Assembly (NCBI GenBank): GCA_032871835.1
Contig: CM065301.1
Span: 76,230,069 to 76,294,068 of the forward strand
Length of the DNA stretch: 64,000 bases
Source of the DNA: Dipteronia dyeriana
Lineage: Eukaryota > Streptophyta > Magnoliopsida > Sapindales > Sapindaceae
Reading direction: 5' to 3'
Shown: positions 13,627-57,545 of the stretch, piece after piece
Layout of the letters: every line of letters starts with the position of its first letter
Position numbering within the stretch: position 1 is the first letter of the stretch
Made by a program: the position numbers and the translations under genes
Notes under the pieces: generated by a model
The model's input: only the letters and a program-made list of their open reading frames with translations
Told to the model about the DNA's origin: nothing
Database searches by the model: none

Positions 13627-14643
13627 CAGTTGAAGAAACAAAAGAAGCAAAATCAGGTCAGGATACCAAGAACACCAATCAATCATCATTGTCTCAACAC
13701 AACCTATATAAATGGTGGCTCTGAATAGCTGTCTATATAATGTTCGTGGCTGTTGGCCAGAGCGTGGCTATAATTTTGGGAAGATTGTACTATGTTAAAG
13801 GAGGGAAGAGCAACTGGATGGTATCACTAATACAGTTTGTAGGCTTCCCAATTCTCCTTGTCTACTACTGCATTTGCAAAAATCTCACCACAAACAGTCA
13901 CCAAATAGAACCGCGGTCTTCGTTGATCGTTGCAGCAGTTTACCTTTCAGTTGGGGAGCAATACCTTCCTGTATCTACTGTGACTCTCATTTCTGCTTCG
14001 CAATTCGCCTTCAATGCTTTCTTCTCTTTTGTCTTCAACTCGCAGAAGTTCACTTCACTGATCATCAATTGTCTAGTCCTTCTCACTATCTCTCCCATTC
14101 TTCTTATGTTTAATAACGACTCTGCCAACTCCTCCGGAGTAGTCTCCAAAGTACAATATGCCATTGGTTTTGTATGCACGGTCGTTGGAGATGCTGTGGG
14201 TGGATTGCTGCTTCCTTTAACACACCTCGCCTTTTGCAAAGTTCTAAAGAGAGGTACGTTTAAAGAGAACATGAATTTGATAATCTGTCAGGCAATAGTC
14301 GTGACTAGTGCAACCATGGTGGGACATTTTGCAAGCGAAGAATGGAAAGGTTTAACGAAAGAGATGGAAGAGTATGAACCAAGGAAGGTGTCTTACTGTC
14401 TTATATTATGCTATTACTTGGGCTGCTATAGCTTCGCAGGTTTGTTCAATTGGCGAAATTGGATTGATATTTGAGGTGTCTTCACTTTTCTGCAATGCCA
14501 TTAGTGTTTTGAGCCTCCCTGTTGTTCCAGCTCTTGCTCTGATAGTTTTCCATGACAAAATGGATGGAGGGAAGGTGATTTCTATGGTGTTGGCCATTTG
14601 GGGCATTGTTTCGTATATCTATATATCTCGAGGACGAACGTAA
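13627..14643 (+). pseudogene. Purine permease (PUP) pseudogene, copy 2, main exon
   Basis: This is a plant purine permease of the drug/metabolite transporter superfamily. After the acceptor at 13626 the frame reads VEETKEAK, then a KWWL-stop-IAVYIMF segment that begins the first membrane helix, GQSVAIILGRLYY, GFPILLVYY, QYLPVSTVTLI, KVLKRGTF, and finally WAAIASQVCSIG to SYIYISRGRT. Three lesions are visible. A TGA at 13722-13724 stands where the family has Arg (CGA to TGA). A 42-base in-frame deletion near 13950 removes 14 residues of a membrane helix relative to copy 1. About 7 extra bases near 14398-14405 shift the frame, so the intact C-terminal helices from about 14415 are read in another frame. 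Starting at the Met at 13740 would skip the first lesion only. Confidence 0.85.
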
Positions 14644-34221: not shown

Positions 34222-37200
34222 TTGCATCATTCTTCTGATAGCTCTAAAATGGATTTTGCTTCGCTTACAAAAACTCTGAACATGAGTCTTCCAATAAAGC
34301 TGGATCAAAATAATTTTATTCACTGGAAAGCACAAGTGCCTGCTGCAATCAGAGCTATAGAACTTGAAGAGTTCATTGATGGTTCTCGACTTGAACCTCC
34401 AAAGTTTGTTGAAGTTCTCTCGTCTAATGGAGTTGACAAAGAAGTGATAAAGAATGATGAATACTCTGCTTGGAAGAGATTGGATCAGCTTCTCATCTGC
34501 TGGCTTTATTCAACTTTGAGTGAGAAAAAAATCTGAGAGGTAACTACTTGTACCTCTGCTAAACATGTTTGGGACACCATGTAAGTTCTTTTTACATAGC
34601 AATCTATGGCAAAAGTTCTCCAACTTCGCCATCAATTGTAAAGTATTAAAAAAGGATCAATGAGTGTTGTTGATTTTGCTCTCAAAATAAAAGAAATTGG
34701 AGATGGCTTGGTTACTACAGGTCAAGTAGTTGATGAGAGTGAATTGCTAGGCTGCTTGTTGAATGGTCTTGGACGTGAATATGATCCTGTTGTTTCAGTG
34801 ATTTCATCTCAAAGAGACACAATGAAGTTTCAAGAAGCTCAGTATCTTCTGTTGTCTGTTGATTTATGAACAACATGTAGAACATCTGAACTCAGTTTCA
34901 CAACTTGATATTTTTACTTTATCAGCAAATTTTGCTTCACATAGTGTTAATGACAAGAAGAATTATAGAAGTGATGGAAACAATTTCAACAATAATAGTG
35001 GAGGAAATAACCGGGGTCGAGGCAGAGGTCGTAGTGAAGGTCAAAATAATAAAAGACTCGTCTATCAGGTTTGTGGTAAATATGGTCATATGACTCTTCA
35101 ATGCTACATGCGCTTTGATCAATCTATTCAATATCAGCCAAGTTAGAGTTCTGTCAGTCATGTTTTCAATAATACTAGTCAAGTAAATGGAACAAAAGGT
35201 GGCGGCAATCATTCTATTATGCAAGCAAATTTTCACCAGGCATCTTCTCATCAATATGCTACTCTAGAAACTGTATTAGATCTATCTTGGTACGTAGATA
35301 GCAGAGCTACAAACCACGTCACGTTTGATGTCAACAATCTCTCTCAAAGATCTGAATACAAAGGTAATGAACATCTGATTGTTGGTAATGGTAATATATT
35401 ATCTATCATGCATATAGGAAACTCTGTTGTGCACTCACAAACTAAGCCTCACATGCCATTACAACTGAATCAGAATTTGCATGTACCTAGTGTTACAAAA
35501 AATCTATTGAGTATATCCAAGTTTACTAAAGGTAATGGTGCCTTTGCTGAATTCTGTGCTGATTATTGTGTGGTTAAGGACAAGATTACGAAGAGGGTGC
35601 TAGTTCAAGGTTTTCTTAAAAATGGGTTATATCAAATGCATCTAACTGGAGCTAACTCTATGACATCTTCACCTGAAGTCTACATGTCTGATTTTTTTTT
35701 TACAGTCTGTTATGGATAATAAAGCTGCATCTAGTTATGTTGATGTATCAAAAAAAAAAGCAATAGCAATTCTATTGTAAATAGATTTACTGGGTATATA
35801 CCAACTGCTTTTGCTGCAGCTAGGACTAGTGCAATGGTGTGGCATGCTAAACTGGGTCACCGAGCTTTGCCTGTACTAAAATCTATAATGAATTCAATGC
35901 ATATTGGTTCACATTTATCTGATATTGAGTATTGTACCTATTGCAAACTCGAAAAGTTGCACAAGTTGCCTTATCAAAGGAATAAAATCAGTTCTACAGC
36001 TCCTCTTGAACTGATATCTTCTGTTATTTGGGTACCATTTCCTATTTCTTCACCAGAAGGATACAAGTATTATATCTTGTTTGTTAATTCATTTAGCCGG
36101 TTTACTTGGCTTTTTCCTTATAGAGCCAAGTCTGAAGCTTTACAGGTTTTTCTCCACTTCAAAAAGAATGTTGAACTCGTTTTTAATCTCAAAATTAACG
36201 CCTTCCAGTCTGATATGTGAGCTGAGTTTCAATCTTTCTTGTCTTTTCTTAAAAACTCAGGCATTACACCTAGGTTCTCTTGTGCTTACACTCACCAAAA
36301 AAATGGTATTCCTGAAAGGATACATAGACATGTTGTAGAGACAGGGCTCACTCTCTTAGCTCATGCAAATATGCCCCTTAAATTCTGGTATGATGTTTTT
36401 GCTACAGCTACTGTTCTAATTAACAATCTACCTACTACTTTGTTGAAGTCCAAATCTCCCTATGAAGTTTTATATCACAAAAAGCCCAACTATAGTTTTC
36501 TAAAACCTTTTGGTTGTGCTTGTTTTCCTTATCTTAGAGATGTTAATGAGCACAAGTTTGATTTTCATTCTACAAAGTGTTTGTTTATAAGATATAGTTT
36601 CTTACATCATGGGTATACGTGCTTGTCTCCATCTGGGAAAATTTTTATTTCTAGAAATGTGTTTTTTCATGAACTAGAATTTCCTTATTCAGCTTTATTT
36701 TCTGGCTCTTCACCTATATCTACAAGTCCATCTTTGCCATTGTCCATTTTTCATTGTCTAGATTCACAGCCATCTGTTTTACTTCCTAGGCAAAGCTCTT
36801 CTCCAATATCTTCACCTATTCATACCTTTGGCCTCCCTTCTAATTCCTTAGTTGATTTTGAGCCTACCTCTAATCGCTCGTGTCATTCTTTACCACAACC
36901 TTTACCTACTGTGCCTCATCATCATATGCAAACAAGGTCAAAGTCAGGTATTTTTAAGCCAAAAGTTTATACCTCTTTGCATGCTATGTCTTCTGATGTG
37001 ATAACAGAATCTGAGCCTAGTTCAGTTAAAGTGGCTCTCTTAAATCTTAAATGGAAACAGGCTATGGAGGCTGAGTATGATGCATTAATTGCAAATAAGA
37101 CTTGGAAATTGGTTCCTTTCTTTGATGGAATGAGTGTTGTAGGAAGTGAATGGGTTTTTAGGATAAAGTACAAACCTGATGGATCTGTTTTGAAGTATAA

Positions 37201-38596
37201 GGCAAGATTGGTGGCTAAGGGTTTTCATCAAGTGCCTGGTGTTGATTTTTTGGACACATTTAGCCCGATTGTAAAGGCTTCAACAATCAGGGTTTTGTTT
37301 ACTTTAGCTTTGTCTTTAGGATGGGATGTTCAACAAATAGATATCAATAATGCCTTCTTGAATGGAGATCTTCATGAAATGGTCTATATAGAACAACCAC
37401 AAGGTTTCAAGAACTCAGAATTTCCTTCTCATATGTGTTGTCTTAAAAAAGCTCTCTATGGCTTGAAACAGGGGCCAAGGGCCTGGTTTCACAAGCTTAG
37501 AGATGCTCTTCTTCTTTGGGGTTTTACAAGCAGTACACCTGATGTTTCATTATTTGTTAAAAGGACTGGTAAGGATGTTATGTTTCTATTGGTGTATGTG
37601 GATGACATTTTGGTCACTGGCATCAATGCTTCTCTTGTCTCTCAGGTCATAGCTGATTTGAACTCTCAATTTGCTTTAAAATCTCTTTATTCAGTTAACT
37701 ATTTTTTGGGTTTTGAAGCTTCAAGAACAATAGCTGGTCTTCACTTAACTCAGACAAAATATGTGATGGATCTCTTAAAAAAGACTGGTCTTACTGACTC
37801 TAAGCCTGTTGTTTCTCCTACTTGTTCTGGTTCCAAGCTGTCTTTACATGATGGCAAGCCGTTTAAGGATCCTACCTTGTATCGCAACACCATTGAGGCC
37901 TTGCAATATTTAGTTAACACAAGACCTGACATTTCCTTCATTATTAATAAGTTGAGTCAGTTCTTGGTCAAATCTACAAATGCTCATTGGCAGGCCAACA
38001 AGAGAGTGCTTCGATACAATAGAGAAGCATCTCATTTTGGTATATGGTTCAAGCCTTGTTCACAGCTCACATTTGAAGTCTATGATGATGCTGATTAGGC
38101 GAGTTGTGTGGATGACAGACGATTTACGAGTGGTTGCTCGATTTTCTTAGGTGGGAACTTAATTACTTAGAGTTCTAAAAAGCAACATGTTATGGCAAGG
38201 CCAAGTGCAGAGGCTGAGTACAGGTCTCTTGCACAAGCTTACACTGAAATTATATGGGTTTGTTCTCTGCTTCAGGAACTGGTGTTTGTTGTTGCTCGAA
38301 AACCAGTGTTGTGGTGTGACAATCAAAGTGTCGCTGCTCTTGCTAAAAATCCAGTATTTCATGCTCGAACAAAGCATATTGAGATCGATGTCCACTTTGT
38401 TCGAGAGAAAGTAGCAGTTGGGATCTTTGATATCTGTTATGTTCCAATCGAATTTCAGCTTGCTGATGTTTTTATCAAAAGCTTAGTTATGGATCAATTT
38501 ATGTTATTACGGTCCAAGCTGAACATTGTTTCCTCACCGACGTTCAGTTTGAGGGGGAATGTGAAGAATAAAGAAAATGATTGCATCAAACCTTAG
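34222..38596 (+). pseudogene. Copia gag-pol remnant (element at 33635)
   Basis: Gag from 34222 (LDQNNFIHWKAQV), with a knuckle region near 35065-35110 (VCGKYGHMTLQC). Protease WYVDSRATNH near 35290 has Arg where the family has Gly (DSG). Pre-integrase WHAKLGHR lies near 35838. The integrase has its second Asp at QSD (about 36207), followed by a TGA at 36217-36219, and the catalytic Glu in GIPERIHRH near 36310. One long frame, 36239-38098, carries the rest of integrase and a reverse transcriptase with IDINNAFLNGD and intact YVDDILVTG. RNase H continues in a new frame, 38192-38596. Only a few lesions block the polyprotein. Confidence 0.9.
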
Positions 38597-41037: not shown

Positions 41038-44000
41038 TCACGTTGTTCCGATTCCGTTGCCCGGACTAGTACGATTGATTTGGTCTTTTTTATTGCCATT
41101 TTTTCTATCCCGCCCCTCCAAGTAATCCAACACCTTATCTTCAACAGTCATTGCATCATTCTCCCCTAGTTGAAAAAAATTCATCCTCGAAATTCCCACA
41201 GTATCATCATCAGGCGAATCACCAGGAAAAGGAATCAAATGCTTGACATTAAACACATCATGAGTTCGAATGTGGCTGGGCAGTTTCTGACGATAAGAAT
41301 TTGTATTAATCTTCTCCAATACTTCAAGTGGCCTTATCTTCTTAGCTGCAAGCTTGTTATATTCCCCCACAACAAACCGGTCCTTTGTAAGGTCTGCCTA
41401 GACAAAATCGCCCACTTCAAACTCCACATGACGCCGCTTTTTATCAGCAGCCAACTTGTATTTCTATGTTGATTTTAACAGATTATCCCGAACCTGCAGA
41501 TGAACCTTTTGTAACCCTCGAATAAAAACTTCAGCTTTTCCATGAATCCTAGTATTGATGGGCAGAGGCAATAAATCTAGCTGGCTACGAGGATTTAAGG
41601 TGTACACGACCTGAAAAGGACTGAAACCCGAACTTCTATTAACTATATGGTTGTGGGCAAATTCAGCTTGGCTAAGTTTTAGATCCCATGACCGGACGTT
41701 ATCCCTAACCAGAAATCTCAACAAATCTCCTAGAGCATGGTTCACCACCTCATTCCTCCTATCCGTTTGGGGTGATAAGCACTACTAAAATCCAACTGTG
41801 TATTGACCATCTTCCAAAGGCTCCGTGAAAGTGGTTGAGGAAACAAGTGTCTCGATCAGAAACGATTGACGTAGGTAATCCATGAAGACAATATACCTCC
41901 CGAAAGAATAATTGGGCAACTTTCACTGTATTAGTGGTTTTCTTGGATGAAATGAAGTGAACCATCTTGGAAAAGCGATCCACAACTATATAAATGGAAT
42001 CAAAATCTCGCTGAGTTTTTGGTAGCCCTAAGACAAAATTTATACTCAAATCTATCCATGGTTGAGTAGGAATGGGCAATGGCATATACAAACCCGTATT
42101 AGTTGCTTTCCCTTTGGACAATTGACAGATTTGACACCTTCCAACATACCTCTCAACTTTCTTATGGATGGTTGGTAAGAAATAAGATGCTTTGACTAAC
42201 TGTAGAGTACGATCACTGTCCACATGGGATGTGGCCCTCCCCATGTAATTCCTTAATAATTTGCATAAGCAAACTACAATCGGGAACACAAAGTTGATTT
42301 CCCCGAAATAGAAAACCATCCACCAATTAAAAATCAGACCTTTCCTCCACTCGTATTATAGCCATAATAACATAAAAATAAGGGTCAGAATCAAATAACG
42401 AAAAAACTCAAAACCTGGCACCTAGACAATCATCGAAGACAACAAATTTACCCGTCGACTCAGAGCATCTGCAACTCAGTTGGTAACACCGACCTTATGC
42501 TTTAAAAAAAAGGTAAACTGTTGTAGGTAGGTAGACCAATAAGCATGTCGGGCAGAAATGTTATCCTGGATGTAAAGATGTCGCAACGCATCATGGTCAG
42601 TATACATAATGAATTCACGATGAAATAAAAAATGTCTCCAATGTTTCACAGCTTGGACCACCGTGTAGAACTCAATATCATAAGTACTGTAACGAATCTG
42701 AGGCCCTGACAGTTTCTCACTAAAATACGCTACCGATCTCCCATTTTGACTTAGAACAACTCCGATGCCTGTCTTGGAGGCATCACTATGTAACTCAAAT
42801 GGTTGGAAAAAGTCAGGTAAGATTAAAATAGGGGTTGATGTCGGTTGCTCTTTTATTCGTTGGAAAGCTTCTTCCGCCTCGGACGACCACTTAAACTTGA
42901 CTCCCTTTATACATTCAATGATATGAGCCATAATACTACTGATGTACGGAATGAACCGGTGATAGAATGAGGCCAATCTACGGAAACTATGAACTTCAGT
43001 AATTATTTTCGATTGGGGCCACTGCCACACTGCCTCAATTTTCAATTCATCTACCTTTAACACTTCTCCAGAGATTACATAACCCAAGAACAACACCTTC
43101 GGTGTCATAAAAACATATATTTTTACTGTTGCCACAAACTTCTCTTTGCGTAGAATACATAAAACCTCCTGAATGTGCAGAAGATGCAGGTCGATGTTCG
43201 CATTGTAAATCAAAATATCATCGAAATACACAACAACAAACTTATAATAAATGGTCGCAGGGCCTGGTTCATTACTCTCATGAAGGTGCTGGGCACGTTT
43301 GACAACCAAAAGGCATAACCAGTCACTAATATAACCCTTCCCGCGTCTTAAACGCTATTTTCCATTCGTCCCCATGCCGAATTCAAATTTGATGGTATCT
43401 ACTCTTCAGGTCCAGCTTGGTAAACACAGTTGCCCCACTAAGTTGATTTATCAAATCATCCAATCTTAGAATAGGAAAACGATACCTCACCGAGATCTTG
43501 TTAATTGTACGACTATCCACACACATCCTAAACGTTCCATTTTTTTAGAATTAAAAGGGCGGGAACCGCACATGGACTAAGGCTCTCCTAAATATTCCCC
43601 TTTGAAAGTAGCTCATTCACTTGTCTCCATAATTTCTCAAGTTCGGTAGGACTCATTCGATAGTGTGGCTTGTTGGGCAACATAGCTCCTGGCTCTAGAT
43701 CAATATGGTGTTGAATATCACATAGGGGTAGAAGTTCTTCCACTAACACTTCTGGGAACACATCAACAAATTTCAAAATCAGAGGAACTGCATCTCTAGG
43801 CACCTCTAATTCATCACTTGTTTCTTTACCAACCAACACATACTTCGTTTCTGATTCCTCCATCTCCAACTCAAATTTCGCGAGTAGGTTAGCATTATCT
43901 CCAGAAAATTTTGACTTTTCAAATGGTTTGCTTGGTAGTAACACAATCTTTGTATCACTAAAACCAAACGAATGAGTATTTTTGAACCCATCATGATACA

Positions 44001-47050: not shown

Positions 47051-50000
47051 TCATCTAGCTACCACTTCTGAAATTGTTGCATTATTAACCGAAAACACTT
47101 CCAAATTCATGGCAGATTTAGTTTGTTCGTTTTCATCTCTTAGTCTCGAAAAAGCAGGTTTCTTCGGAATTGTTATACATGTAGCTTCATTTTTGAGCAT
47201 TGAGAAAACTTCAAGCATGGTCGGTCTATCATTCGGGGTTTCCTGAACACATAGCAGAGCTATCTGCAAGCATGTCATCAATTTGCAACTTGAAAGTGTG
47301 TCGTCCAGTGAAGGATCCATAAAATTCATGCCTTTGCCATCTTTCCACAGCACATATGCCTAGAATTATCAATTGTCAATGATATTAAGATATGCTAGAT
47401 TCTGGTCAAGATTACTTATCAAGATTTATTGAAGAAACTTACATGGTCAAGAAGGCTTATATTATCATTTTCACCATATAATATGGAAACCTTTTTGCCA
47501 CTTATGATTTGCAGAAGTAGAACCCCAAAACTATAGACATCGGATTTGGTCGAGTATATGCCTCTTCTGGTATATTCAGGAGGTACATAACCACTACATC
47601 GTATAATTACAAAAAAATGAACAAGTATAGTTGAACAAATAAAAGCTTCATCATGAAATAGCATTATGAGAATATAAATATATTTACTTACTATGTTCCA
47701 ACAATGCGTTCCGTGTTAGCTTCAAGATCATCTTTTGTGAAAATTCTAGCCATACCGAAATCTGATATTTTAGGTTTCATATTTTCATCCAATAGAACAT
47801 TACTAGCTTTCAAGTCTCGATGAATAATAGTTAATCTTGAATATTCCTGAAGATATAGAAGTCCTTGAGTAACTCCTTCAATAATATCAACGCGTTTTTT
47901 CCAATCCAAAATAAAATGTCTACTAGGATCTGCATTGAGTCCAATTATGAAATTTCAATGAGGTAACAATATGCAACAAACCAAAATAGAAAGTTGCCAA
48001 TAAATGAAGCAGGAAACTATTCATACCAAAAAGATAGTGGTCAAGGCTTTTGTTTGGCATGTATTCATAGACTAACATTTGCTCTTCTCTTTCAATGCAA
48101 AACCCTAAAACCCTAACTAGATTTATATGTTGGAGCTTCGCAGTAAGCATAACCTCATTCTTGAACTCCTCAAATCCCTGTGTGGACGTTTTTGAAAGTT
48201 TTTTCACGGCTATTTCCTGTCCATCTGGTAACACGCCCTAAGAACAAAAACCACAACCATGGTCGATATATACGTACCTTTCAGTACAATACAAACTTGA
48301 AAATATTACCTTGTAAACAGGACCATATCCACCCTCCCCAAGCTTATTTGCAATTGAAAGATTGTCTGTAGCAACCTCAATGTCATTCAAAATATACACT
48401 ATCAAATTAGGAGCATTGCTATTTAAATCTCCAGCAGCAGCAGTAGTATTTATTTTGTTCTTTGAATCCTTAGCTGAGTTCACTTTCCCTATCAATAAAT
48501 AAAATGTCAATTTTTTCAATCCAAGTTGTATATATATATATATATATTTATAATCTTATAACAGAAACAAGTTACCTTTTGATGATTTGAGCATTCTAAA
48601 TCTAATGCAGCAGTAATAAATCAGAATTCCAATTAGAAGAATAACAGCTGCAGTTGTCGTCAAAATGATTACTAATACTCGCTGATTATTCTGTCCATTT
48701 TTATCGTCTTCCTGGGCTGAAAAAATAATCCTCAAACATTGTAAACAAGCTTTTGTTATGTTTCTTTACTTTCAACTCAACAAAAACATGATTTGCCAAG
48801 CTTTTATTGCAGTCTCTTTCTACGGGGCTCTTAAAAATCACTAAGTGCAATGCCCTATAATTCATGGCAGACCCAATTATCTGAAATATTTTCCTTGAAA
48901 CAGACAGCAGAGTGCCCTATGAATTGTGGAATTACTTGTATATGTCACATTCAACGTTACATAAAGGAAAAGTGAATGCTATTAACCCTATAGAATAGTT
49001 TTGGCATTTTGTGCCAGCTAGGCTACAATTATGAAAAATTTATAGATAAACTAGAAGGGTTAATTGCATAAATAACCATATAATTAGGGTAGTTTCAAAA
49101 TTTATCAATTTCCAATAATTTGATTAATTTTATCAAAGCATCCACTTTTTGGACAAAAATATTCCTAATCAAATAAATCTCTAACAACGGATATCTACAC
49201 ACGGACCTCCACCTCTATTGGAAGGAAGAAGAAGAAATACTAAGGATTAAACACGATAGGAGTTAAACTATTTTTTCTTCAAATCGGTGTTGGCTCTGTT
49301 TGGAATCATCTCTACTCTCTATTAATGAGGACTTTGACTTTCTTTTTCCTACTTTTTCCTAGATCTGTCTCTTCCCAATTGAGTCTTTGACCGTATAAAT
49401 TTCAAGATTTACAACTTGCTACGATAAATTTCTATGAAATTTGAAGAAGAAATTTCTGTGAAGAGATCCGTTTACAAGGGTGATAGTTCCATTTCTACAC
49501 TTGGTGTAGCCCCATTTCCTATCACTTTGTGTTCATTTCTCGGGTAAAACCGATATTTAATGGTTTAAATAAACTTGTGCATGTGTTTTAGCTTTCTAGA
49601 GGTGTTTGCGCGATGATTGAAGATGTTCGGGTTGTTTTGAAGATTTAGAAAAGTTGAAGAAAACCATGCGTGGTACACGTGTTAAACTGTATCGCGCATC
49701 AATCGCAAAAACTTCACAGAGATTTGTCACAGTACAATCGTTGAAGTGTACCGCGAAAAAGGTCCAGAGATTTGTCAAGGTTCCTTCGTTGATCTAAACC
49801 CTGCATATTGTGTTGCACATTTTGTCTAGAGATTTGACGCAGTACATGAATTGATCTGAACCATGCCCGTACAGCGAAATTGGCTTGCTAGCTTAGCATT
49901 TCTGTGGGATATGTGCCTTAAATTTGTACACATATATAAGCCTCACCTTCACTCGTTCTCCTCACCTCTCCATGACTCTTGAACTCTAAACACCTTCAAA

Positions 50001-53000
50001 ACTTTACCTTTAAACACTTTCCTCACCAAATCATCAACATCCTTCCATCAAACCTTCACCATACCACCAAATCCATCCCAAATCACTAGCCATCTGCCTA
50101 GATCCATCATCAAGCCACCATCTTGGAGTAAAGGAATTGGAGGAGAGAAGCACGAGAAGAAGATTGTAAGTTTGAAGAAGAGAGAGCTCTCCATCATTAG
50201 TTTTCTTTATATCTCTTTCTCTTTTCATTCTTGTATTGGCTATGTTTAAATTGTTCTTTATATTTTGTTTGGCTTTAAGTTGTAATATGAACTAAATCTC
50301 TTGAGTTAAGTTCGAGATGAAACTCAATTCATGACTATCTAAATACAGACCTCCAATTTTATCTATGCTTGTTTGTATTGTTGAATAAAATTTGCATGTG
50401 CTTAATGCTTTTGAGTTCTTAGCTATCACTTAAATGTTATTTTTGTGGTTGTGTGATGGACTGAGAGGGGAAGCACACCACATGTTCGATAAAATGTTAC
50501 ATACAAGTGTAGTAAGGTAGAGATACATGAGGCTAGCTTGTAGGATTATGTAATTTGGATAATCATCAAGAGATAAGTTATTGGTATGTATGAGTATGGT
50601 TTTTATTGCTTGAGAGAGTGTAGAGATTATTTTATGGTCACACGAATCTACAACATTCACTTGCATAATCACATTTAAACACTTTCTTCGCCAAATAATC
50701 AACATCCTTCCATCAAACCTTCACCATACCACTAAATCCATCCCAAATCACTAGCCATCTGCCTAGATCCATCATCAAGCCACCATCTTGGAGTAAAGGA
50801 ATTGGAGGAGAGAAGCACGAGAAAAAGATTGCAAGTTTGAAGAAGAGAGAGCTCTCCATCATTAGTTCTCTTTATATCTCTCTCTTTTCATTCTTGTATT
50901 GGCTATGTTTAAATTGTTCTTTATATTTTGTTTGGCTTTAAATTGTAATATGAACTAAATCTCTTGAGTTAAGGTCAAGATGAAACTCAATCCATGACTA
51001 TCTAAATACAGACCTCCAATTTTATCTATGCTTGTTTGTATTGTTGAATAAAATTTGCATGTGCTTAATGATTTTGAGTTCTTAGCTATCACTTAAATGT
51101 TATTTTTGTGGTTCTGTGATGGACTAAGAGGGGAAGCACACCACATGTTCGATAAAATGTTACATACAAGTCTAGTAAGGTAGAGATATGCGAGGCTAGC
51201 TTGTAGGATTATGTAATTTGGATAATCATCAAGAGATAAGTTATTGGTATTGGTATGTATGAGTATGGTCTTTATTGCTTGAGAGAGTGTAGAGATTATT
51301 TTAGGGTCACACGAATCTACAACATTCACTTGCATAATTGGGTTTAGTTTGTGGGTCTAGAATAAAGATAGGATTAGTTGGGTGGATTCTAAGCCTTAGG
51401 GATTTTCTCTTATAAGTTACAACTTCTTCTTGCGTTCGTGTGTTTTTAATCTCATAGTTTGCATATTTAGTTGAATTAGAGTAGTCTAGTGTCTAAATTG
51501 GTAAATACAATCTCTTAGTATTGGTCAAATAGTAATTTAGCCAATTAATTTCAGTAATCAACTTTTCAATTCTCGTGGGAACGAATCTTATTTACATTGT
51601 ACTACACTCTACGGCCTCATACGATTGCGCGTGTCCCTATTTTGGAGTGGTCAAAGGGGTCCGTCAAGGGTGATGATCTTGTTTTTCTGCTTTTAATCCT
51701 ATCCTATATTGTACCAAACACAATATTACTCTATTTTTAATCATATTCTATGTTACACCAAACATAGAATAATATTAAAATTAATCAAATCATATCCTAT
51801 CTTTTCTCATAAAAATAATCATATCATATCTCAGTAACCCACATATCAAACGGGGCATTTAGGAAAAAAGTTTACAAAAATAATAAAAACGGTGATGCAT
51901 GACAAAAATAGACCATCCTTTTTTAACAGGCTAAAAAGGGGTGTTTCCTCTAGAGACTTGTAACAATTGGGTAACTAATGCACATCGAATAAACAAACAT
52001 AGAAAACCTGAGCAAATGAATTGTTTAAAAATGCAATTTAAGTTTTGAAGAATTGTTTACCGGCTGCAGCTTGAGAAAGCACCCAATTATCATCATAGGG
52101 GACTTGCCACACAACATAACCAAGCAGATTCCTCTTCTTGGCATATGAAACCTTGATTTTAACAACCTCAAAATCATCGAAACCGATCCAAGATGTCCCA
52201 ATTGAGCAGTAATTCACCACATAAGTCGCGTTGTACGTAACTTTAGCTCCATATCTTGTAATGTAATCCTTGATTTCCTTAAAGCTCATGTTTCCCTCCT
52301 CTGTAATGGCCGGTCCACTTGCTGGTGCACCAATACTATTGTTTGCGGGGTTTACAAGTGTCCACGCATAGCCATAGAAAGGTAACGATAAAACTATCTT
52401 ATCTGCCGATAAGCCTCCATCAATCCATGTCCCAATACCATAATCAGCATTAGTAGTACTGCTTGGATCATACAGAGCTGCTTGAGCTCCTGTAAAGTTT
52501 GACCAAGTAGGCATGTAAAAATCATAAGCCATAACATGAACCCAATTCAAGCAGTGTTGTATAGAGTCAATTGGAAAACTTGCCGAGTCCAGATTTGGTG
52601 AATATTGAACAGCTGCAGTCAAAATCAGTCGCGTTTGGCTAGAGTTTCTTGACTCTAAATCAATAGCACCCTTCCATTCTTGGAAGAGGACACCCATGTT
52701 AGACATATCTGTGCTCGTGTTCGCAGAAACCCAACTGAGGTCTAGGCCTTGAAAGCCATAAAGTCTGGCTAATTTTATAGAAGAGTCTATGAAAGATTTT
52801 CTATAAGAAGAATTGCTCACCATTGAAGAAAGAGTTGAATAGCTTTCATCTCCACCTCCAATGGACAGGAGAGTAGTGACTGATGGGTTCTTTTGTTTGA
52901 CTGTTTGTGTGAAGTGGGAGAAATGTTTTTCATCAGAAGCTGAAGGGGAGAGCTGATAGGAGGTGCTATTGACAGGAGCAAAAGCGCAAACAAGATGAGT

Positions 53001-53153
53001 AAACAGAGCAGAATTTATGTTGGAAACAGGGAACTCGCTTCCTGAAAGCCAGTAACCGGCTTTAATCCAACTTTGACCTTTTGTAAGCCGAAATTCTAGA
53101 CACAGTAGAATATGGAAGACAACGATGAAAATTTTGGACACCATTGAAGACAA
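47051..53153 (-). CDS. CHRK1-like: GH18 (class V chitinase-like) receptor-like kinase, CHRK1 type
   Basis: Seven exons join in frame: 53153-52061, 48716-48576, 48488-48310, 48237-48027, 47929-47692, 47593-47443, 47359-47051, giving a predicted 773 residues. Residues 1-26 are a signal peptide. 27-365 is a GH18 fold with LLSIGGG (96-102) and VMAYD (207-211). The catalytic block DGxDxDxE reads Q135-G-L-D138-L-S140-W-V142, so the acid Glu and two Asp are gone. A membrane helix spans about 378-401. The kinase has GEGGYG (462-467), Lys483, Glu499, HRDLKASN (578-585), DFG (598-600) and PPEY. All splice sites are GT-AG and no lesion is seen. Tobacco CHRK1 has the same architecture and also lacks the catalytic Glu. 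A chitin-related or cell-wall signal receptor is an inference. Confidence 0.93.
48717..52060 (-). other. Intron 1 of the GH18 receptor kinase
   Basis: A 3.3 kb phase-1 intron between donor GTAAAC (52060) and acceptor TTTTCAG (48717), separating the GH18 exon from the membrane-helix exon. It is swollen by repeat DNA: a tandem duplication at 50009-51339 and retroelement-LTR-like sequence at about 49560-49900 and 51400-51660. The other introns of the gene are only about 70-130 bases. It holds no exon I can recognise. Confidence 0.8.
50009..51339. repeat. Tandem duplication of a 665-base unit in the receptor-kinase intron
   Basis: Copy A 50009-50673 and copy B 50674-51339 are almost identical, for example CCATCTTGGAGTAAAGGAAT at about 50121 and 50786 and the TTCTTGTATTGGCTATG stretch in both. 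The few differences include a short TTGGTA insertion in copy B and a duplicated CT in copy A. The high identity suggests a recent event. Confidence 0.92.
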
Positions 53154-55936: not shown

Positions 55937-56658
55937 TGTTGACGGTGATTTTTGGATCGTGTAGGATTGATCACGCATCTAACAGGTTTTTATAGATTGT
56001 TGAAGAGGTAATGAGAAAGATAGAAAAAGAAGAAAAATATGCACACATAAGTTTACGTGGTAAAACCCCAAGGTGGGGAAACGTCCACAGTTGCCGGTGA
56101 TGGTGAGATAAAATTCACTAAAATGTAATAATTACACACTCAATCTCTCATTCTTTTTCGTATCTCTCTCTCTTGTATATTTTATATGTGTTCTCGTATA
56201 TGTCTCTCGTTATGTATCTTTTACAATGAGATTACGGGTTTATTTATATGTGTATAGAACCCTAAACCTTGCTACACAAATAAGGAAAGGTGATAGTGTT
56301 TAATTAGAACTGGTTACTTGTTGAAGTCGTCTTTATCTTCTTTCCTGTTTTGGAGTTTATCCTTCTGGAAGCTTTGAGTTCTTTCCTGAATAGAATTCTC
56401 TGATACTGAAGAGGAAATAGATATATTTCCTTATTGGAGTACGACTCTAGATTCTTTGTTTAAGTAAAACAATTCTTCTTCGTATTTGAGTCGTAGTTGC
56501 CTTTAATATCTCCCATACGTTATCCAACTGACCTATTGTCTGATTCCGATCAGACTTCTTTTATCCCTATCGGATGGTCCCGACCAAGTCCTCTCTACCC
56601 GATCAGCTAGTTTCCCCGACCAGCTATTTGTGCCCGATCGATTAACTTCCCTATAACA
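55937..56658 (-). repeat. Solo LTR, inverted relative to the neighbouring element
   Basis: 722 bases, read on the minus strand from TGTTATAGGGA to CACCGTCAACA. Perfect ATGTG target duplications lie at 55932-55936 and 56659-56663, so it is a separate insertion reduced to one LTR by recombination. It belongs to the same family as the LTRs at 56716-57545 and 60330-61175, but lacks about 120 bases after its first 11. Confidence 0.9.
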
Positions 56659-56715
56659 ATGTGTAATATCTATCATTACTCTTTCTATATTTATTATATA
56701 ATCTGTATTAGGAAT

Positions 56716-57545
56716 TGTTATGGGGATTTTTTGATAGCATGACAAGTCAGCATGATTAGATATGCTATGTCATGAGATTCAGAAAAGATCAACTCAAGGC
56801 AATTAATAAATAATCTCAAAGCCAAGTAAAGATTACCCAAGATGGTCAGGGAAGCTAACCGATCGGGTACAAATAACCCGGTTGGAAAAACTAGCTGATC
56901 GGATAGAGAGGACTTGGTCGGGACCATCCGATCGGGATAAAAGAAGTCTGATCGGGATCAGACAATTGGTGAGAGATATTAACGGCAACTACGACTCAAA
57001 TACGAAGAAGAATTATCTTACTTAAATAATGAATCTAGAGTCGTACTTCAATAAGGAAATATCCTCTTCAGTAACAGAGAATCTTATTCAAGAAAGAACT
57101 CAAAGCTTCCAAAAGGATAAACTCCAAAACAGGAAAGAAGACAAAGACGACTTCAACAAGTAACCGGTTCTAATTAAACACTATCACATTTCCTTATTTG
57201 TGTAACAATTATTAGGGTTCTATACACATATAAATAGACTCATAATCTCATTGTAAAAGATATATAACGACAGATAGACAACAACACATAGAAAAATATA
57301 CAAAGAAAGAGAGAGAGATACATCAAAAAAGAAGAGATTGAGTGTGTAATCATTATACTACAGTGAATTTCTTCTCGCCGTCACCGGTAACCCTTGGATG
57401 TTTCCCCGCCTTAGGGTTTTACCACGTAAACTTATGTGTGCATGTTTTTCATCTTTTTCTATCTTTCTCATTACCTCTTCAACAATCTATAAAAACTTGT
57501 TAGACACGTGATCAATCCTACATGATCCAAAAATCACCGTCAATA
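56716..57545 (+). repeat. 5' LTR of the gag-only gypsy element
   Basis: Starts TGTTATGGGGATT and ends CACCGTCAATA. Compared with the solo LTR end CACCGTCAACA, the last dinucleotide has decayed from CA to TA. Confidence 0.9.

Follow-up and report, generated by a model that had tools for sequence, protein, structure and literature searches.

The closest described relative of the gene considered here is the tobacco receptor-like kinase CHRK1, which joins a kinase to a GH18 ectodomain related to class V chitinases and lacks chitinase activity for want of the catalytic Glu (PMC10573068). Surveys have recorded proteins of this kind under several names. A lectin review counted 91 plant proteins that combine GH18 with a kinase domain and termed the ectodomain a predicted enzyme (PMC5485988), a soybean lectin survey termed one such protein a lectin receptor kinase (PMC6272470), a soybean GH18 survey recorded a kinase in one class V protein (PMC11855358), a legume survey listed Glyco_hydro_18 among the extra domains of receptors (PMC7333395) and a receptor survey reported 15 chitinase receptor kinases (PMC9603095). 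In the available parts of the open-licence literature no report was found of catalytic loss across the family or of a conflict between ectodomain and kinase trees, and no ligand was given there for any GH18 receptor. The gene analysed here lies in a stretch of 64,000 nucleotides of Dipteronia dyeriana, hereafter the window (C7:76230069-76294068 of a 914-Mb genome; positions are those of the window). It is an ordinary member of the known GH18 receptor kinase kind, and comparison with its relatives suggests that the loss of catalysis which it displays is a property of nearly all of them and apparently arose more than once.

The gene is read on the minus strand from 53144 to 47051 as seven exons forming one open frame of 770 residues, with all six introns GT-AG and compatible exon phases; the annotated protein Ddye_024516 is identical across all 770 residues. 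A signal peptide, a GH18 barrel, a transmembrane helix and an RD kinase are encoded in that order, which is the make-up of a CHRK1-type GH18 receptor-like kinase in a single intact frame. Pfam places GH18 (PF00704) at residues 30-351 with 222 bits against a cut-off of 29.6, covering 4-317 of the 317 profile positions, and a protein kinase at residues 453-722; a further match, to the ABC1 kinase, falls under its cut-off. DUF26 found no match in the Pfam scan, and the protein is not a DUF26 cysteine-rich receptor kinase. An earlier sequence-only reading of the window had described seven open exons, a retained GH18 fold and a complete kinase core. All three hold: beside the open exons and the two Pfam domains, LLSIGGG begins at residue 92, VMAYD at residue 204, and the kinase motifs HRDLKASN and DFG are present. 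The gene is therefore confirmed as real, its catalytic residues lost while the fold and the kinase motifs remain.

The loss is concentrated in the degenerate block QGLDLSWV, residues 132-139, at 52728..52751 on the minus strand, where class V enzymes mostly read HGLDLDWE. Codon reading bears out the coordinates given in the earlier reading and puts Q132 at 52751-52749, D135 at 52742-52740, S137 at 52736-52734 and V139 at 52730-52728; the residue numbers it gave (135, 138, 140 and 142) were each 3 too high. The catalytic DxDxE by which class V chitinases are defined as enzymes thus appears as D135-L-S137-W-V139. Against 106 kinase-less class V proteins the window protein is replaced at D137 and E139 and at their neighbours Y140 and P141. 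D137 and E139 are each retained in 105/106 of those proteins and in 0/76 receptors of the window type, so the change in the block is not a matter of chance. The proton-donor Glu and one Asp are indeed replaced, as had been claimed, but 'two of three Asp' overstates the loss because 87 of the 106 class V proteins carry His at position 132. With these replacements the window ectodomain should no longer cut chitin. In the Dipteronia sinensis protein P0005 the block reads GLELSWV, a Glu replacing even the remaining catalytic Asp (D135).

An AlphaFold model of the ectodomain (30 sequences; mean predicted local distance difference test score, pLDDT, 92.8) has an intact (beta/alpha)8 barrel. The nearest solved folds are those of AtChiC (3aqu) and NtChiV (3alf; 3alg is its E115Q mutant in complex with NAG4), with a template modelling (TM) score of 0.97, followed by RobpsCRA (4uri) at 0.92. 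AtChiC and NtChiV are 50% and 46% identical in sequence to the ectodomain and, unlike the window protein, are native enzymes with DxDxE and without a kinase. By descent and by predicted fold, the window ectodomain is a member of GH18. Sixty of the 86 positions that class V proteins conserve to 97% or more remain at least 90% conserved in the 76 receptors of the window type, only part of which were placed in a tree. Y31, F55, S94, G97, D135, W138 and W346, which on the basis of GH18 structures we take to be residues of the cleft, are within the 60. A GH18 fold without catalysis, for which the structure titles show or suggest sugar binding, is also that of the animal chi-lectins YKL-39 and Ym1 (4ay1, 1e9l), which differ from the window protein in having no kinase and only 28-29% identity.

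The extent of the loss was surveyed in three homologue searches, from which the best 120 of 616, of 1129 and of 1294 matches were taken. In the second the query had the length of a receptor, with the active NtChiV domain as the part scored, so that active receptors would rank high; the third relied on a class V domain profile built from six active sequences. Of 322 proteins 253 were classed: 106 as receptors (one GH18 match and a kinase match of at least 100 residues), 109 as short kinase-less proteins (at most 430 residues, a limit of our choice) and 38 as longer kinase-less proteins. The other 69, with several GH18 matches or partial, were excluded from the counts, and proteins with several GH18 matches were excluded from the trees. 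Among the matches listed, to which all these counts refer, DxDxE was found in 1/106 single-GH18 receptor kinases as against 104/109 short kinase-less proteins, and with near copies removed in 1/74 as against 81/86; much of the kinase-less set comes from the six-active-sequence profile search, which favours DxDxE. In the 120 proteins taken from the first search there were 145 GH18 matches, of which 12 missed the motif and five had DxDxE, all five in proteins with at least two GH18 matches that resemble merged models. One receptor, P0123, retained the Glu and not Asp137. The sole holder of DxDxE among the 106 receptors was P0142 of Rhodamnia argentea (782 aa), in which 1/86 invariant positions is changed and the receptor may still carry a working enzyme. 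All 147 kinase-less proteins, short and longer together, divided into 108 with and 39 without DxDxE. The GH18 domains of 37 of these 39 are nearest to those of receptors (33 main, 2 Solanaceae, 2 Myrtaceae), for which reason the proteins may be receptor models missing their kinase. The earlier reading had implied that its loss made the window copy special. To judge from the sequences compared it is not, the loss being common to the whole sampled clade.

Phylogenetic analysis of the two halves of these proteins gave conflicting results. GH18 trees were built with the catalytic columns masked. Before the first tree 13 near-identical rows were dropped and then P0144, P0122 and P0153 for not meeting limits; later trees, those of the kinases included, used chosen subsets of 66, 64, 54, 86 and 61 rows. 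SYMRK and BRI1, taken at first as outgroups for the kinases, lay on very long branches, and the kinase tree was rooted instead on seven other receptor kinases from the Dipteronia genome itself. In the GH18 tree the window gene falls within a main eudicot receptor clade (support 100/99; 38 rows, or 26 in the 86-row tree) that holds no row with DxDxE. Receptors from three plant groups fall elsewhere: the GH18 domains of nine Solanaceae receptors form a 19-row group with 10 Solanaceae class V enzymes, those of three Linum receptors a six-row group with three Linum enzymes, and those of six Myrtaceae receptors an eleven-row group with five kinase-less Myrtaceae proteins, three of which have DxDxE (each 100/100). 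On the 64-row tree a single clade of all receptor GH18 domains was rejected (p 0.0006), as were the placement of the Solanaceae domains with the main clade (p 6e-7) or with its asterid receptors (p 3e-66) and the union of the three class-V-like groups (p 1e-38).

The kinase tree is different. All kinases of GH18 receptors in the tree, that of the window gene included, form one clade (100/100) against the seven own-genome receptor kinases. Linum is placed within a rosid subclade (100/98), Solanaceae within a wider subclade (98/87) and Myrtaceae next to subclade B members from Sapindales and Malvales (98/87), while the placement of Solanaceae with the asterid main-clade kinases had a support of only 72/85. 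A position of all three groups' kinases outside the main kinases was rejected (p 0.0006). Because the two trees conflict, it seems that the ectodomain was recruited or replaced more than once. The simplest reading is that of one kinase lineage in which exon 1 gave way to a class V chitinase of the same plant group, once at the least and probably on three occasions. Exchange between ectodomain and kinase has been reported for DUF26 receptor kinases (PMC6368629). The numbering of locus tags places kinase-less class V genes near receptors in Eucalyptus (receptor ACJRO7_013467, chitinases 013474 and 013476), Anisodus (RND71_005530 and 005538) and cacao (SCA6_012240 to 012244) and, as tag numbers alone, suggests a tandem supply of chitinase exons. 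The window ectodomain did not form one clade with the Solanaceae receptor GH18 domains, among which no row is named as a tobacco receptor such as CHRK1. Since the latter group with their own class V chitinases, the Solanaceae receptors look like analogues and not orthologues of the window ectodomain. CHRK1, to which the earlier reading had appealed as the known precedent, is thus less direct a precedent than it seemed: the Solanaceae receptors tested carry a different and seemingly separate ectodomain lineage.

That the receptors of these three groups took a GH18 domain related to their own class V proteins and then lost catalysis again has good but not complete support. The 86-row GH18 tree calls for no fewer than five switches between an intact and a lost DxDxE, a count which carries no direction and from which we infer five losses. 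Among the class-V-like receptors few of the 86 invariant positions are changed, and the catalytic ones are among them: four in P0152 (D137N, E139V, Y140S and G151E), five in P0149 of Linum, E139Q included, and six in P0125, including D137G, E139Y and Y140P, with up to 14 in more changed members (P0132). Catalytic positions are over-represented in the changed invariants (combined p 2.5e-5 over four lineages). They remain so (p 6.5e-4) when three of the four lineages are represented by members with more changes, Linum P0149 serving in both tests; the members were picked post hoc, and the calculation assumes that lineages are independent and that every position is equally likely to change. The result shows that what was lifted in these sequences was the catalytic constraint, which does not imply selection for its loss. 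Receptors in which Gln replaces Glu occur in Linum, Myrtaceae and Solanaceae; the Solanaceae case (P0122) has a partial kinase model, and the Rhodamnia argentea receptor P0143 has the same change. According to the structure titles this natural replacement is the one made in the laboratory for the sugar-bound structures 3alg and 4mnm.

The Dipteronia dyeriana genome holds at least 34 GH18 matches, of which the best 12 were examined. Nine loci have the exon order of the window receptor (the window gene, a C9 copy covered by L010 and L018, and L011 to L017), and DxDxE was found in none of the nine. The exon matches of the window gene, C9, L011, L014 and L015 are free of stops and frame breaks, splice sites having been examined for the window gene. 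The C9 copy shares the seven-exon structure of the window gene in DNA, has a first intron of ~14 kb and resembles the window also in flanking non-coding sequence; it is a recent duplicate of the window gene (synonymous divergence, dS, 0.06-0.09 in kinase and GH18), with open exons in L010 1418-2500 and L018 6556-8163. An AtChiC-type class V copy at L009 (G000:C4:13580500-13590400, ~1727-2809) keeps DIDWE and has no kinase match in that stretch, and may be non-functional because an in-frame stop lies within its LLSIGGG block.

Ratios of non-synonymous to synonymous change (dN/dS) were computed pairwise among own-genome paralogues only and are rough, dS reaching 1.6 in deep pairs. For the window gene against L011, L014 and L016 they were 0.30, 0.26 and 0.32 in GH18 and 0.16, 0.13 and 0.17 in the kinase. 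Against C9 they were 0.88 (0.50-1.52) and 0.42 (0.18-1.05), and other pairs ranged in GH18 from 0.37 (L013-L014) to 1.20 (0.72-2.28, L016-L017). These values place the ectodomain under lasting constraint, with roughly half the stringency seen in the kinase and with laxity between some recent pairs, and the 0.88 is compatible with relaxation or with diversification. The sequence-only reading had seen in the gene selection for binding and signalling and not for hydrolysis, to be traced by dN/dS. Part of this stands, in that the catalytic residues are gone and fold, kinase and deep constraint are kept; plain purifying selection on binding at present is not supported, given the C9 value. Cleft-side loops, which make up 77 of 338 GH18 positions, hold 17 of the 49 differences that separate the window gene from C9 in this domain (permutation p 0.028, a nominal value from a single exploratory test with hand-assigned loops). 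At the level of the family receptors showed no excess variability over enzymes in the cleft loops (entropy ratio 1.05, as against 1.42 in the strands), so diversification of these loops is not favoured.

We consider it probable that the window gene encodes a GH18 receptor-like kinase whose pseudo-chitinase ectodomain is a receptor for glycans that does not cut them. The protein would be secreted to the plasma membrane, where the barrel would bind its ligand without cutting, most likely an oligosaccharide or glycan containing N-acetylglucosamine (GlcNAc) and held in the cleft that once took the substrate; the kinase would then relay the signal onward. With cutting absent the ligand would stay bound and the receptor would spare its own signal. 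A sugar ligand is favoured because the presumed cleft residues stay at least 90% conserved in the 76 receptors and because a class V relative, the Robinia agglutinin RobpsCRA, recognises high-mannose N-glycans without chitinase activity (PMC6272470). RobpsCRA is like the proposed receptor in using a class V fold for glycan binding and unlike it in retaining DLDWE and in consisting of a chain without a kinase.

Several observations weigh against this interpretation or against the history of exchange proposed with it. The window-type receptors vary at M205 (30/76) and Y207 (49/76), and 11 rows of subclade B mostly have Phe in place of W346, so that one common sugar ligand is unlikely; the sets used for W346 and entropy comprised 77 main-type receptors including Solanaceae P0147, and a recount at 76 gave the same outcome. 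Two kinase-less proteins, P0190 (462 aa) and P0194 (465 aa), read DxDxV without the Glu and sit with gymnosperm class V proteins, hence loss of the Glu is not confined to receptors. Four of the nine own-genome loci (L012, L013, L016 and L017) have stops or frame breaks, and the GH18 ratio between window and C9 is high. Finally, approximately unbiased (AU) tests that placed the kinases of a single group outside the other receptor kinases gave no rejection (Myrtaceae 0.10, Solanaceae 0.31, Linum 0.195), and exchange in each single group therefore rests on branch support and the joint test.

The last of these results bears on an alternative account of the tree conflict, in which each plant group had an independent fusion of a class V chitinase to one of a set of closely related kinases, with no exchange of exon 1 in an existing receptor lineage. 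Such fusions seem unlikely, though they are the most serious of the alternatives: the single-group tests and the 72/85 support for Solanaceae with asterid kinases would allow them, while the joint rejection of all three groups outside, the single kinase clade and the nested positions of Linum, Myrtaceae and Solanaceae speak for exchange. It is very improbable that the receptors are artefacts of gene prediction in which a class-V-like GH18 was fused to an adjacent kinase gene. P0011, P0012, P0013, P0014 and P0047, with at least two GH18 matches and one DxDxE, do resemble merged neighbours. However, proteins with multiple GH18 matches entered neither counts nor trees, all counted receptors but one differ from enzymes at the catalytic residues, window and C9 copies agree in DNA in their seven exons, and CHRK1 is described as a laboratory-isolated tobacco gene without activity (PMC10573068).

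Two further explanations concern what the ectodomain does. One, which we hold to be doubtful, makes it a surface decoy that mimics the plant's secreted class V chitinase and senses pathogen molecules binding or inhibiting chitinases. One kinase lineage would repeatedly have taken exon 1 from its own class V gene, cutting being switched off each time, with the window gene as an old, longest-dead branch and P0142 as a freshly captured and perhaps still cutting one. Catalysis would then be disposable and resemblance would matter, so that at times the chitinase gene of the plant itself would supply a fresh ectodomain. This would account for the clustering of receptor and class V domains within three plant groups, and it agrees with the neighbouring locus tags in Eucalyptus, Anisodus and cacao, with the nominal enrichment of window-C9 differences in cleft-side loops and with the prediction that secreted proteins of pathogens block the active sites of chitinases (PMC10533508). 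Against it, the window clade keeps an old ectodomain, ~46-50% identical to NtChiV and AtChiC and not refreshed, and the loop enrichment is absent at the family level. Simple relaxation, with a functionless, drifting ectodomain on a kinase that works without a GH18 ligand or in a decaying gene, appears a shade less plausible again. It draws on the GH18 ratios of window-C9 and L016-L017 and on the four broken loci, but fits poorly with ratios of 0.26-0.32 in the deep window pairs, with the 60 of 86 class V invariants conserved in 76 receptors, with the concentration of changes on catalytic positions in class-V-like receptors and with five loci whose exon matches lack stops or frame breaks.

The layout of the gene is similar to that of DUF26 receptor-like kinases, which usually comprise seven exons, the ectodomain and the membrane helix taking up one each (PMC6368629), the window gene differing in that its ectodomain is GH18 with no DUF26. 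Exon 1 (52061..53144; all exons are on the minus strand) encodes the signal peptide, judged by eye at ~residues 1-23, and the entire GH18 domain (residues 24-361), as read from the frame, the splice sites, PF00704 and the AlphaFold model. It is followed by a 3.3-kb GT-AG intron (48717..52060) that contains a tandem duplication of ~665 bp (50006-50669 and 50671-51338, 95.7% identical). Exon 2 (48576..48716) carries the transmembrane helix, a hydrophobic stretch in the frame judged by eye. The remaining exons were assigned from the frame and Pfam: exon 3 (48310..48488) to the juxtamembrane region and the start of the kinase with its glycine-rich loop, exon 4 (48027..48237) to the N-lobe with the AVKK lysine and helix C, exon 5 (47692..47929) to the catalytic loop HRDLKASN and DFG, exon 6 (47443..47593) to the end of the activation segment and the next helices, and exon 7 (47051..47359) to the C-lobe, the C-terminal tail and the stop codon. 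Beside the gene are retrotransposon frames at 36221-38095 (RVT_2 and SH3_retrovirus) and 42479-43354 (RNase H and RVT_1), presumably Copia-like and Gypsy-like respectively. Two purine-permease-like open frames (Pfam PUNUT) lie ~11 kb apart at 2298-2918 and 13725-14471, and at ~56000-57500 two halves resemble, by eye, an inverted repeat.

The pattern in the family is of more interest than the single copy in the window. One dead receptor chitinase could be chance, whereas repeated inactivation on one kinase family comes close to a replicated natural experiment. Since the inactivation is found in several ectodomain lineages while the kinase-less cousins are mostly intact, cutting would seem to be unwanted or useless on the receptor and the barrel to do something else. 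The pattern weighs against the statement, in the available part of the lectin review, that such ectodomains are predicted enzymes (PMC5485988). It also supplies matched pairs for ligand tests, either P0142 with DxDxE and P0143 with Glu replaced by Gln, or an enzyme and a receptor of the same species. Loss of catalysis in nearly all of the relatives compared, apparently more than once, suggests that the ectodomain of these receptors now senses something.

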